This document shows positions 6 to 29,023 of a DNA stretch of 49,717 nucleotides, piece after piece. How positions within the stretch are numbered: the first letter of the stretch is position 1; the number at the start of each line of letters is the position of its first letter. The stretch spans positions 1 to 49,717 of the forward strand of contig JAIPKD010000015.1 in the NCBI GenBank assembly GCA_021733835.1, given 5' to 3'. The notes below the pieces were generated by a model that did not search any database, was not told where the DNA came from, and saw nothing but the letters and a program-made list of their open reading frames with translations. The stretch is from Verrucomicrobiota bacterium. GTDB taxonomy: Bacteria > Verrucomicrobiota > Verrucomicrobiia > Limisphaerales > JAIPKD01. A program made the position numbers and the translations under genes.

Positions 6-1013
6 TTGGACGGCAATAATGATGTTGTCCGATCGTATATGTGGGGCAAAGACCTTTCGGGGACACTGAACGGTGCAGGCCTGCCTGCCGCGTCGCCCGC
101 CTGTGCCGGCACGGCAGACAGGGACGCGGCGCAGGCAGGAGGCGTAGGCGGCTTACTCGGTGTGGATGATGCAGACCAGGGCTTTCACTTCGTTGCCTAT
201 GACGGGAATGGCAATGTAATGGCGCTGGTAGATGCGGATGACGGTACGGACTCGGCCGAGTACGAGTACGGTCCGTTCGGCGAGCTGATCCGCGTCACCG
301 GCCCGATGTCCGACAACCCCATCCGCTTCTCCACCAAGTACCACGACACCGAAACCGGCCTGGTTTATTACGGGTATAGGTATTATTGGCCAGCGATAGG
401 TCGGTGGTTGAATAGGGATCCGATTGGGGAGAGGGGTGGAATGAATTTGAATTGTATGCTTCGAAATAATTCTATAGGTCGAATTGACCGACTTGGATTT
501 TTAGAGAATAATACTCCGAGTGGCAATTTAACGATTTATTATTCGGCACAGCCATGCGGTAATGCAAAGGCATTATTAAACAGTACAGATGCTCAAGTAG
601 CAAAATCGATATCGATAAAAATCATTGTAGCGGCAACCGGGAAGGGGGGTAAAGTGAGAAGTGGTGAAATTGGTCCTTTTCCAATAGGCGCACGATGGCT
701 TCCTATGGCTGGCAATGAAGCCCCAAATGTAGCATGTAGAATGAAATACAAATGTGCGATAAAATGCTGTTGTAAATTCGGAAGTTTCAATCCTAAGTGG
801 AGTGGAAATAAGGAATGGGTGTATGGAAGGATAGTTTCAAGAATGAAAATTAATCAGAGAACAGGTCGTCAAAGGAAGGATATGGAAGGTAACTGGATGT
901 GGGCTGATTCTAAATGTGTTATAGATAACAAACAATTGACCAAAGCCAAAAAGGATTGCCAAAACACATCAAAAGGAAGATGCAAAATAGAAATTCAACT
1001 TCGAAGTTATTGA
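6..1013 (+). CDS. RHS repeat-associated core domain protein, C-terminal part (5' end at or beyond the window edge) with a variable C-terminal tip
   Basis: RHS core motifs YDGNGNVMALVDADDGTDSAEYEYGPFGE, NPIRFSTKYHDTETGLVYYGYRYYWPAIGRWLNRDPIGERGG, then unrelated tip sequence. Confidence 0.9.
   Translation: MDGNNDVVRSYMWGKDLSGTLNGAGLPAASPACAGTADRDAAQAGGVGGLLGVDDADQGFHFVAYDGNGNVMALVDADDGTDSAEYEYGPFGELIRVTGPMSDNPIRFSTKYHDTETGLVYYGYRYYWPAIGRWLNRDPIGERGGMNLNCMLRNNSIGRIDRLGFLENNTPSGNLTIYYSAQPCGNAKALLNSTDAQVAKSISIKIIVAATGKGGKVRSGEIGPFPIGARWLPMAGNEAPNVACRMKYKCAIKCCCKFGSFNPKWSGNKEWVYGRIVSRMKINQRTGRQRKDMEGNWMWADSKCVIDNKQLTKAKKDCQNTSKGRCKIEIQLRSY
78..137 (+). repeat. Palindromic protein-invading element, copy 1 (in frame inside RHS core)
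   Basis: ggcctgcctgccgcgtcgcccgcctgtgccggcacggcagacagggacgcggcgcaggca; exactly 60 nt absent from the paralogous core at 1861/1862; shared with 27021-27080 and 28911-28977. Confidence 0.88.
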
Positions 1014-1492: not shown

Positions 1493-2785
1493 TTGTTAAA
1501 TCAATATACGAACGTAGTCACGGGAAGGCTGGCGACGAATCTGGTCTTCGACGCCGACGAGAATTTAACAGACGACGGAACATGGTCATATACGTGGGAC
1601 GGGGAGAACAGACTGGTTGAAATGGAGAAATCGAATAGAAAGATCGAATTCAAGTACGATTGGATGGGTAGGAGGATACAAAAAGAGATGTCTTCAGGTT
1701 ATCCTAGATATTGGGACTCCGAATACACAAACAAATTTGTCTACGACCTGTCCGGAGGTCAAGCAGGTTCATGGAACCTACTGGCGGAATTGAACGGTAG
1801 TAACGATGTTGTCCGGTCATACATGTGGGGGCTGGATATGAGTGGGACGTTACAAGGCGCTGGAGGCGTAGGCGGCTTACTCGGTGTGAACGACGCAAAC
1901 CAGGGCTTTCACTTCGTTGCATACGACGGGAATGGCAACGTCATGGCGCTGGTCGATGCGGATGACGGTACGGTCTCGGCCGAGTACGAGTACGGTCCGT
2001 TCGGCGAGTTGATCCGCGCCACCGGCCCGATGTCCGACAACCCCATCCGCTTCTCCACCAAGTATCACGACACCGAAACCGGCCTGGTTTATTACGGGTA
2101 TCGGTATTATTGGCCAGCGATGGGTCGGTGGATCAAACGGGATCCTATTGGGGAGAGGGGTGGGATGAATCTCTACAACTACGTCGGAAATGACCCACTA
2201 AACTGGATTGATACGCTGGGATTGGCTTATGGTAATCCTATTTCTGGTCCTAATGGCCCAGTTGGACCATCAAGTCCGTATAGCCCCGGTTTGCCGTATT
2301 ATCCAGACGGCTATCTATACACTCCAACTACTTCTAACTATTCGACGAGTTATGTTGAAGAGGAGCAGCACTTTATTATTGGTTCAGGATTTACACGGGT
2401 ATTCTGCTGCGACGAAAACTATAACAAGCGAATATTTTGGTATCGGAAAATATGTTTTGGTGCAGCCGTCGGGTTTAGTTCAGGGGGAGGAAAAATTGTC
2501 AGCGGCATGTCAGGAAAGGATTGCCGCGGGCAAAATTATGAAGGGTGGGTCTTCGAGGGAGGTGTCAGTCTTGGCCCCGTCGGCATTGGTGGTGACGTAG
2601 GTTACCAAGATTTTCCTGGAACTCAAGACTGGCTGCTTCCGCCTCCAGGAGATTATTCGGGCGTAAATGAGTTTGGTTTTGGAGCTGGTATGGGGCTTCC
2701 GAAGCCCGGCTTAATGGTTAAAGCGACTTGGTGTCGATACACGCTCTTTTATGAGAAGCGTGTTCCGTGTGGTTGTGTAAAGTAA
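1493..2785 (+). CDS. Truncated RHS cassette: core domain plus a second, different C-terminal tip
   Basis: LLNQYT...FDADENLTDDGTWSYTWDGENRL, YDGNGNVMALVDADDGTVSAEYEYGPFGE, RDPIGERGGMNLYNYVGNDPLNWIDTLGL; near-identical DNA to 138-430; TTG start uncertain. Confidence 0.85.
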   Translation: MLNQYTNVVTGRLATNLVFDADENLTDDGTWSYTWDGENRLVEMEKSNRKIEFKYDWMGRRIQKEMSSGYPRYWDSEYTNKFVYDLSGGQAGSWNLLAELNGSNDVVRSYMWGLDMSGTLQGAGGVGGLLGVNDANQGFHFVAYDGNGNVMALVDADDGTVSAEYEYGPFGELIRATGPMSDNPIRFSTKYHDTETGLVYYGYRYYWPAMGRWIKRDPIGERGGMNLYNYVGNDPLNWIDTLGLAYGNPISGPNGPVGPSSPYSPGLPYYPDGYLYTPTTSNYSTSYVEEEQHFIIGSGFTRVFCCDENYNKRIFWYRKICFGAAVGFSSGGGKIVSGMSGKDCRGQNYEGWVFEGGVSLGPVGIGGDVGYQDFPGTQDWLLPPPGDYSGVNEFGFGAGMGLPKPGLMVKATWCRYTLFYEKRVPCGCVK

Positions 2786-27020: not shown

Positions 27021-27080
27021 GCGCCTGCCTGCCGCGACGCCCGCCTGTGCCGGCACGGCAGACAGGGACGCGGCGCAGGG
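27021..27080 (+). repeat. Palindromic protein-invading element, copy 2 (intergenic, truncated right end)
   Basis: gcgcctgcctgccgcgacgcccgcctgtgccggcacggcagacagggacgcggcgcaggg; near identity to 78-137. Confidence 0.85.
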
Positions 27081-27088
27081 AGGTCGGC

Positions 27089-27136
27089 CTGATCCGTCAT
27101 GTCCCCCCCCTGATCCGTCATGTCCCCCCCCCCCCC
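27089..27136 (+). repeat. Two tandem copies of CTGATCCGTCATGTC(C)n ending in a C13 tract
   Basis: ctgatccgtcatgtccccccc|ctgatccgtcatgtccccccccccccc. Confidence 0.9.
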
Positions 27137-27145
27137 GTGCCCGGA

Positions 27146-29023
27146 TCAACGGTATATCATATCATCGACCGTGCCGTTGGCCTTGATGAACGGGAGCACG
27201 TGTTCGGTGTGTGGAACCACGATATCTAGCACATACGCCTCTCGTGCCTCGAGCATGCGTTCAAGGGCCGGTTTTAATTCATCTTTTCTGAAGATTCTCT
27301 CGCATTTGACGTTGAATCCCTTGGCAATGGTCACAAAGTCCGGGAATATATGTCCGCTGTTCTTCGGATCACCGATAAACGTATGCCCACGCCTGCCCGA
27401 GTAAAACCTGTCTTCCCATTGCATGACCATGCCGAGGTGCTGGTTATTGAGAATAACCGCCTTGGCCGCGATATTCTCGATGTGCGCGGTGGCAAGCTCC
27501 TGGACGTTCATTAGGAACGAGCCGTCGCCGTCGATGTCAATAACCTGTCGGTCGGGGAATGCGACCTTTGCCCCGAGCGCCGCGGGGAATCCGAAGCCCA
27601 TAGCACCCAGTCCTGCGCTGGTAAGAAACTGCCGCGGCCGCTCGAATTTGAAGAATTGCCCGGTCCACATCTGGTGTTGGCCGACGCCGGTTGCGATTAT
27701 GGCATCGCCGCCGGTCATCTCATGTATTGTTTCAATAACCATCTGTGGGAGGATGACCTGGCTGCCGTCGCCGTCGAGGAATTCATCGACGAATTTGGAC
27801 TTACGCGTTGGTTCATCGACTTCATACCTGAACGGCGCTTTGGCCTTCCATTCTTGTATTCGCTTTTGCCATTGGCTGAAGTCTTTCCTGACCGCCCGTT
27901 CCTTAACCAACTTGTTGAGTTGTTCAAGGGCGTATTTGATATCGCTGATAATCGGGAGATGCGCAGACCTGTTTTTATTAATCTCCGAGGGGTCTATATC
28001 GATGTGCACAATCGTTCCGTGCTCGCAGAATTTTTCGACCTTTCCCGTCACTCGGTCGTCGAACCGCACGCCGAAGGCCAAAAGCAAGTCCGCTTCGCTC
28101 ACCGCCCAATTGGCGTAGGCGCTGCCGTGCATTCCGAGCCATTTCAACGAAAGCGGATGCGAGTCGGGAAATCCGCCGATGCCCATAAGGGTAGTGGTCA
28201 CGGGTATACCCGTTGCTTCGGCAAATTGCATCAGCTCTTCATGTGCGCCGGAACTGATGATACCGCCGCCCGTATAAAGCACCGGACGCTCGGCTTTCTC
28301 GATTAATCCAATGATTTCATTCAAGGCGATGGTATCGACGCGTTTATCAGGATTATATCCGCGCGGTTTCGCCTCGGCTGGAAAGACCGGTTGGACGCGT
28401 TGTTGCTGGATGTTCTTGGGTACATCGATTACCACCGGTCCCGGTCGCCCTGTCTTGGCAAGATAAAAGGCCTCTTTGACGATATGCGGGATTTCGTTGA
28501 TATCGGTGATCAAGTAGCTCTGTTTGACGATGGGGAGGGTAAGACCAAAAACATCCGTCTCCTGAAACGCCGTCTTGCCGATCATGTTTTGCGGGACCTG
28601 ACCCGTTATCGCCACCATGGGAACTGAGTCCATGAACGCGTCGGCTATCCCCGTAATTAGATTAGTGGCGCCGGGGCCGCTGGTCGCCATACAGACGCCG
28701 ACCTTGCCGCTGGCACGGGCATAACCGTTTGCAGCAAACGCGCCGCCTTGCTCGTGACGGGGCAGCACCGTTCTGATCTTTTCGGAACGAACAAGCACCT
28801 GGTGAATCTCCATGCTCGCGCCGCCGGGATAGGCGAATATCGTATCCACTCCCTCGCGCTCGAGAGCGGCCACGAGTATCTCACTCCCGAGCATCGGTGG
28901 TCCAATCTCCGCGCCTGCCTGCGCCTTGTCCCTGTCTGCCGTGCTGGCACAGGCAGGCGTCGCGGCAGGCAGGCCGGACTGCTTCTTTATCCGGGTCTCT
29001 CGAGTACCTGTATCTTTACTCAT
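27146..29023 (-). CDS. ilvB: Acetolactate synthase large subunit
   Basis: GSEILVAALEREGVDTIFAYPGGASMEIHQ, ATSGPGATNLITGIADAFMDSVPMVAITGQV, DIDGDGSFLMNVQELATA; unusual N-terminal extension containing the repeat-encoded peptide. Confidence 0.96.
   Translation of the reverse strand: MSKDTGTRETRIKKQSGLPAATPACASTADRDKAQAGAEIGPPMLGSEILVAALEREGVDTIFAYPGGASMEIHQVLVRSEKIRTVLPRHEQGGAFAANGYARASGKVGVCMATSGPGATNLITGIADAFMDSVPMVAITGQVPQNMIGKTAFQETDVFGLTLPIVKQSYLITDINEIPHIVKEAFYLAKTGRPGPVVIDVPKNIQQQRVQPVFPAEAKPRGYNPDKRVDTIALNEIIGLIEKAERPVLYTGGGIISSGAHEELMQFAEATGIPVTTTLMGIGGFPDSHPLSLKWLGMHGSAYANWAVSEADLLLAFGVRFDDRVTGKVEKFCEHGTIVHIDIDPSEINKNRSAHLPIISDIKYALEQLNKLVKERAVRKDFSQWQKRIQEWKAKAPFRYEVDEPTRKSKFVDEFLDGDGSQVILPQMVIETIHEMTGGDAIIATGVGQHQMWTGQFFKFERPRQFLTSAGLGAMGFGFPAALGAKVAFPDRQVIDIDGDGSFLMNVQELATAHIENIAAKAVILNNQHLGMVMQWEDRFYSGRRGHTFIGDPKNSGHIFPDFVTIAKGFNVKCERIFRKDELKPALERMLEAREAYVLDIVVPHTEHVLPFIKANGTVDDMIYR
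28911..28977 (-). repeat. Palindromic protein-invading element, copy 3 (in frame in the ilvB N-terminus)
   Basis: Reverse complement ggcctgcctgccgcgacgcctgcctgtgccagcacggcagacagggacaaggcgcaggcaggc; encodes GLPAATPACASTADRDKAQAG. Confidence 0.88.

Follow-up and report, generated by a model that had tools for sequence, protein, structure and literature searches.

Repetitive extragenic palindromic (REP) sequences are usually mobilized by a transposase with a Y1_Tnp domain, the REP-associated tyrosine transposase (RAYT). RAYT genes are often found near their REPs (PMC3733652), and RPE-type (Rickettsia palindromic element) repeats with the tag CGTC apparently have no dedicated transposase (PMC3733652). 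Palindromes lying within genes have already been described, both as intragenic REPs and as RPEs (PMC3733652, PMC2229807), the latter being defined by a terminal CGTC tag (RPE-4/RPE-6) or by a length of 105–146 bp (PMC3733652, PMC2229807). The element analyzed here lies in a Verrucomicrobiota bacterium (assembly GCA_021733835.1, contig JAIPKD010000015.1), of which we studied a stretch of 49,717 nt (hereinafter the window), and it takes the form of a 60-nt insert in an open reading frame (ORF) of the RHS type. We interpret this insert as a small, non-autonomous mobile hairpin of the REP type, with a 27-nt unit nested in a 33-nt unit, as part of a wider explanation, judged as a whole, that we regard as reasonably probable. 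Its kind is thus already known, but the family to which it belongs appears to be new.

The core of the RHS ORF at 3–1013 contains 60 extra nt in comparison with that of a second RHS copy (ORF 1493–2785), made up of CCTGCCTGCCGCGTCG, CCCGCCTGTGCCGGCACGGCAGACAGG and GACGCGGCGCAGGCAGG in that order (Table 1). A preliminary description of the window had placed the insert at 78–137; because the GG at either border slides, this and our placement at 80–139 represent one event, and the empty site it had reported in the second RHS copy is likewise real. That description had treated the 60 nt as a single palindromic unit; palindromic it is, but composite, the 60-mer being a 33-mer whose loop has received 27 nt. 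The bare 33-nt form, CCTGCCTGCCGCGACGGACGCGGCGCAGGCAGG, occurs on contig C12 of the same genome (G000), and the window copies of the inner element at 96 and 27040 differ by one mismatch from the 27-mer consensus CCTGCCTGTGCCGGCACGGCAGACAGG. The 60-nt form folds with –24.5 kcal/mol (z –3.9) and the bare 33-nt form with –15.7 kcal/mol (z –5.0); each unit forms an imperfect stem whose 3′ side bears a 2-nt bulge, and the first CCTG of the 27-nt form stays unpaired, making up a 5′ tag. Nesting within hairpin loops is seen again at two other loci (L058 and L094). The two other window copies that had been claimed were also recovered, one of them in an ilvB-like ORF, where it occupies the 5′ part and comes before the first Pfam domain; this copy might precede the true start codon, which may lie downstream, and we accordingly did not accept it as a proven protein insertion. 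A 24-nt core, allowing up to 3 mismatches, gave three matches in the window as against none in any of 100 shuffles, which excludes chance for these copies. The genome also holds the additional copies on which the preliminary proposal of a mobile element had been staked: a fourth full 60-nt copy lies in another RHS fragment (C100:1988–2062) and, because it shares its right-hand flank with the window RHS copy, probably stems from the same insertion event. We accordingly put the independent insertions of the 60-nt form in this genome at about three, to which the shorter forms on contigs C12 and C34 are added. Immediately past the intergenic window copy, a repeated CTGATCCGTCATGTCCCCCC motif and poly-C runs occupy 27100–27140; contigs C5, C74 and C83 (L011, L019 and L021) carry intergenic repeats that have GCGCAGGCAGG ends and contain ATGCCGATTTATCCGCC units, and that probably belong to another repeat family in this genome.

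Searching a collection of genomes from 84,980 species for the 27-mer via its 23-nt core, we retrieved 49 stretches, in which the 27-mer was nearly always complete and the flanks were variable; a reversed pattern retrieved 0. They come from Desulfobacterota, Bipolaricaulota, Neomarinimicrobiota, Anaerolineales, Verrucomicrobia, Planctomycetota, NC10/Methylomirabilota, Nitrospira, Betaproteobacteria and Atribacteria, among others; the earlier suggestion of an independent family holds in so far as the family appears new, but it is found in many phyla and is not private to its own genome. In a sample of one other phylum it was present in 61 of 395 genomes, and per-genome copy numbers reached 80–107, with zero matches for the reversed-pattern controls in either case; within its own order 5 of 38 genomes carry the element, its own genome counted in. 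Genomes of E. coli gave no match to the 60-nt element, and a literature search with the element's own sequence, in which subscription journals were thinly covered, found no paper. Three IMG/VR viral contigs (L043, L044 and L045) contain the 27-mer core, pointing to a possible route between hosts. As the carriers are mostly, indeed nearly all, metagenome-assembled genomes, and copies lie at contig ends in some of them, an artefact of assembly or library preparation has to be considered; however, most copies are located mid-contig, vary among genomes and derive from many source projects, some lie on contigs of at least 2 Mb (G563:C1 and G500:C1), and the reversed-pattern controls are zero, making such an artefact highly improbable.

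Evidence for insertion into proteins comes first from contig C12, where an intact 1129-aa HsdR reading frame contains five in-frame elements (30, 33, 39, 33 and 39 nt), all of which appear as in-frame gaps against four uninterrupted, plasmid-borne homologues of ~50% identity (from Ketogulonicigenium, Deinococcus, Rhizobium and Priestia). The homologues of this best-tested host gene thus lack the peptides at the insertion sites, and the inherited peptide that the preliminary description had named as the counter-case was not found in them. The 27-mer inserts of a nucleoside hydrolase and a phosphoglycerate mutase sit at gaps relative to solved structures, an FtsQ ORF keeps both of its Pfam domains around the insert, and further interrupted ORFs code for a glycosyltransferase, HsdM, PglZ, a BrxH helicase, PglX and a type IIG enzyme. 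Copies remain open within long, domain-supported ORFs, the host-embedded cases having been partly ascertained through those long open frames; defense genes are conspicuous among the domain-supported hosts, in a sampling not designed to gauge enrichment. In one Desulfobacteraceae genome, three paralogous stretches (L062, L067 and L073) show the filled and the empty state at two sites; the difference is exactly 27 nt, and no duplication accompanies it. Of 83 distinct flank pairs, 68 have G at –1 and a single one has A at –2 (the element is usually preceded by YG), and target duplications show no excess in these pairs and are absent from two empty sites. That RHS and other proteins instead inherited the peptide from an ancestor, without any mobility, and that it disappeared elsewhere might be read from the right flank common to the window and C100 RHS copies, but this view is refuted, and hence barely conceivable, by the presence of the same DNA in unrelated genes, in various frames and orientations, and in intergenic DNA, as well as by the empty paralogous sites.

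Lengths of 27 and 30 nt prevail both within and outside clear ORFs, with 38 of 43 copies in three genomes being multiples of three. Because these lengths also prevail outside clear ORFs, and because families of 29 and 23 nt occur too, we rejected ORF selection as a general explanation of the multiple-of-three length. All six frames are open in every form tested, but this also holds for 30–64% of shuffles and is accordingly weak evidence. In the Atribacteria and Bipolaricaulota genomes sampled, the majority of copies fall outside clear ORFs, and therefore the family is not purely protein-invading; the likeness to RPEs drawn in the preliminary description is supported for mobile palindromes that stay open in ORFs. 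These many copies outside clear ORFs, and the stable folds, would suit a palindrome maintained by selection for a service to the host (e.g., a hairpin in transcripts or a regulatory site); yet the sporadic distribution in its own order and in the 395-genome sample, and the insertion into coding sequence, render this reading very improbable.

A nuclease-coding form was detected on contig C34, where an 83-aa GIY-YIG domain interrupts the 33-nt arms and reads in frame with the surrounding DUF1156 DNA methylase. In about ten genomes, a GIY-YIG domain bordered by the same palindromic arms continues the frame of its host gene, which encodes HsdR, HsdS, a DNA methylase or a helicase (Table 1). In the well-armed cases the reading runs from host gene through nuclease and back into host gene, the ends of the nuclease generally lacking a start or stop codon; the nuclease would therefore be made solely as part of the host protein. 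Paired arms were found in none of 30 stand-alone GIY-YIG ORFs inspected, and the armed nucleases fall together in a single clade (13 of 13; support 0.96), with Tyr17, Arg27, His31 and Glu64 invariant in eight aligned armed domains. This association of arms and nuclease was seen in one set and repeated in a second, both sets having been found by similarity to the same proteins. The HsdR site MFH/G is filled in L139, L140, L158 and L241, and is empty in the HsdR of contig C12 and in the plasmid HsdRs. On a 2.0-Mb contig (L298), a 1239-aa DUF1156 methylase ORF combines the nuclease form with four solo hairpins, all in frame. In a 1235-aa HsdR (L198, G070), one reading frame was also seen to combine a GIY-YIG element with three or more solo hairpins (DLSACNAQAG, DLSACDAQAG and HLSACGALAQA). 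Pfam shows only GIY-YIG and host domains, with no Hint splicing domain of the intein type; a search of viral contigs with the nuclease retrieved no relative, and the literature, with the same thin coverage of subscription journals, yielded no paper joining GIY-YIG with bacterial palindromes.

Taken together, we favor a family of REP/RPE-like, protein-invading hairpins whose 33-nt branch includes a nuclease-coding, homing-like form and whose 27/30-nt members are moved in trans, an account that we hold to be likelier true than false. The armed nuclease would cleave either the hairpin arms or target sites that are still empty, after which repair would copy the element in, in a homing-like manner. 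The 33/39-nt solo hairpins would be internally deleted derivatives of the nuclease form, or landing pads, and the 27/30-nt hairpins would be moved by an enzyme acting in trans; genic copies would persist because the survivors preserve the frame and loops tolerate them, most visibly in genes of restriction and other anti-phage systems. The nuclease is a good candidate for the mover of the 33-nt branch; as mover of the 27/30-nt branch it is unproven. Armed GIY-YIG domains are commoner among element carriers (4 of 61 vs 4 of 334; p=0.02, phylogeny ignored). Also in favor of the account, dN/dS between L139 and L140 is 0.12 for the nuclease and 0.02–0.09 for the host flanks. Several points weigh against this account. 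Both the cleavage by the nuclease and the mobility of the element are deduced, not directly observed. The low dN/dS of the nuclease may reflect only the constraint to preserve the host protein. Armed GIY-YIG domains were not found, at the thresholds used, in many element-rich genomes (G042, G574, G790 and G620), which include several of the richest, and the nuclease therefore cannot be the cis mobilizer of every 27/30-nt copy. Finally, Y1_Tnp is present in 18 of 18 element-rich as against 11 of 18 element-free genomes (p=0.008, phylogeny ignored), a co-occurrence that leaves room for an HUH transposase acting in trans.

This last observation also speaks for a classical REP/REPIN (REP doublet forming hairpin) system, in which a RAYT (a Y1_Tnp HUH enzyme) would move all forms in trans and the GIY-YIG domain would be a passenger that landed in a hairpin loop. 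RAYT substrate-like features, namely a tag with a bulged hairpin, no target duplication and a fixed upstream base, are consistent with it, as are Y1_Tnp ORFs that themselves lie in frame in restriction genes of other bacteria. However, of the 59 Y1_Tnp loci that we inspected, 47 of which belong to element-bearing genomes, one has an intact element within 1.5 kb and 58 do not, though RAYTs often lie near REPs (PMC3733652); the tag is CCTG, not GTAG; and the only Y1_Tnp sequence of the source genome is a degenerate remnant with two in-frame stops (C100:44–244, L102), ~1.7 kb away from the RHS copy of that contig. We accordingly rejected the RAYT as a cis partner on the 58 loci, and regard the classical system as a whole as rather unlikely. 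The in-frame Y1_Tnp/RAYT-like ORFs, found inside large HsdR, SNF2 helicase, Eco57I-type, DUF1156 or PglX genes, are a parallel case with a different enzyme; at L084, REP-like peptide repeats (ARPSRSG...PDRDGLATP) stand on either side of the Y1_Tnp ORF. Returning to the nuclease-coding hairpins, we tentatively raise the possibility of a new homing-like class: a GIY-YIG enzyme without start, stop, intron or intein of its own, bounded by REP-like arms, existing only as a translated insert, typically in a restriction or anti-phage enzyme, crossing phyla and yielding the small protein-invading hairpins.

Table 1. Features of the window (nucleotide positions) and loci of enzyme-coding inserts (L numbers).
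Feature	Position or locus	Strand	Context or basis
60-nt composite element	80..139	+	within RHS ORF 3-1013; encodes GLPAASPACAGTADRDAAQA between NGA and GGVGG
Inner 27-nt element CCCGCCTGTGCCGGCACGGCAGACAGG	96..122	+	one mismatch to cross-phylum 27-mer
Outer 33-nt element, left half	80..95	+	bare 33-nt form at G000:C12; fold
Outer 33-nt element, right half	123..139	+	bare 33-nt form; fold
Empty site, RHS copy 2 (QGA/GGVGG; junction near 1861/1862)	1841..1882	+
Second 60-nt copy	27024..27083	+	intergenic
Third 60-nt copy	28914..28973	-	N-terminal extension of ilvB-like ORF 27146-29023
Armed GIY-YIG in SNF2 helicase	L137; L141 (one stop)		protein search of carriers
Armed GIY-YIG in HsdS	L138		protein search of carriers
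Armed GIY-YIG in HsdR	L139, L140		protein search of carriers
Armed GIY-YIG, own phylum	L158 (one arm diverged); L157 (hairpin upstream only)
Armed GIY-YIG, independent 395-genome sample	L240, L241, L243; L245 and partial L242 (degraded or one-sided arms)
In-frame Y1_Tnp ORFs	L193, L194, L195, L196 (G067); L197 (G044); L199 (G064); L293 (G790); L084

The occurrence of the same arms with a nuclease inside makes the mechanism of protein-invading palindromes directly testable. The frames of restriction and BREX-type enzymes can evidently survive repeated in-frame insertion, five in one protein, and such insertions amount to a natural experiment on how proteins evolve and may be a hidden record of inter-phylum gene flow.

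Like the RPEs and their Wolbachia counterparts (WPEs), the present family consists of short palindromes that lie in frame in protein genes, keep the frame open and occur in intergenic DNA too (PMC2229807, PMC3733652), as exemplified by the five HsdR inserts, the nucleoside hydrolase and the phosphoglycerate mutase. Unlike them, it has the tag CCTG rather than CGTC and units of 24–39 nt, so that neither the tag nor the length that defines RPEs is present; it further occurs in many free-living phyla, has a nuclease-coding form and, among the genic hosts encountered in this analysis, is frequently found in restriction genes. It differs from the GTAG REP/REPIN and RAYT systems, a likeness for which a verrucomicrobium with the epithet terrae has been named (PMC3733652), in carrying CCTG at the hairpin-end position of GTAG, in an adjacent Y1_Tnp being confined to the single locus noted above, and in a 27-mer that is letter-identical across phyla. 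With GIY-YIG homing endonuclease genes it shares the catalytic Tyr, Arg and Glu and a site that is filled or empty in orthologues; here, however, the domain is neither in an intron or intein nor free-standing, but is translated in the host protein between REP-like arms. Miniature inverted-repeat transposable elements are likewise small, with palindromic ends, and presumed non-autonomous, but the present units are of 24–39 nt rather than 70–300 and create no target-site duplication. Finally, the family resembles, by description rather than sequence, the protein-coding palindromes reportedly found by Suyama in 2005 in Methanocaldococcus jannaschii, which are likewise palindromic repeats with coding potential.
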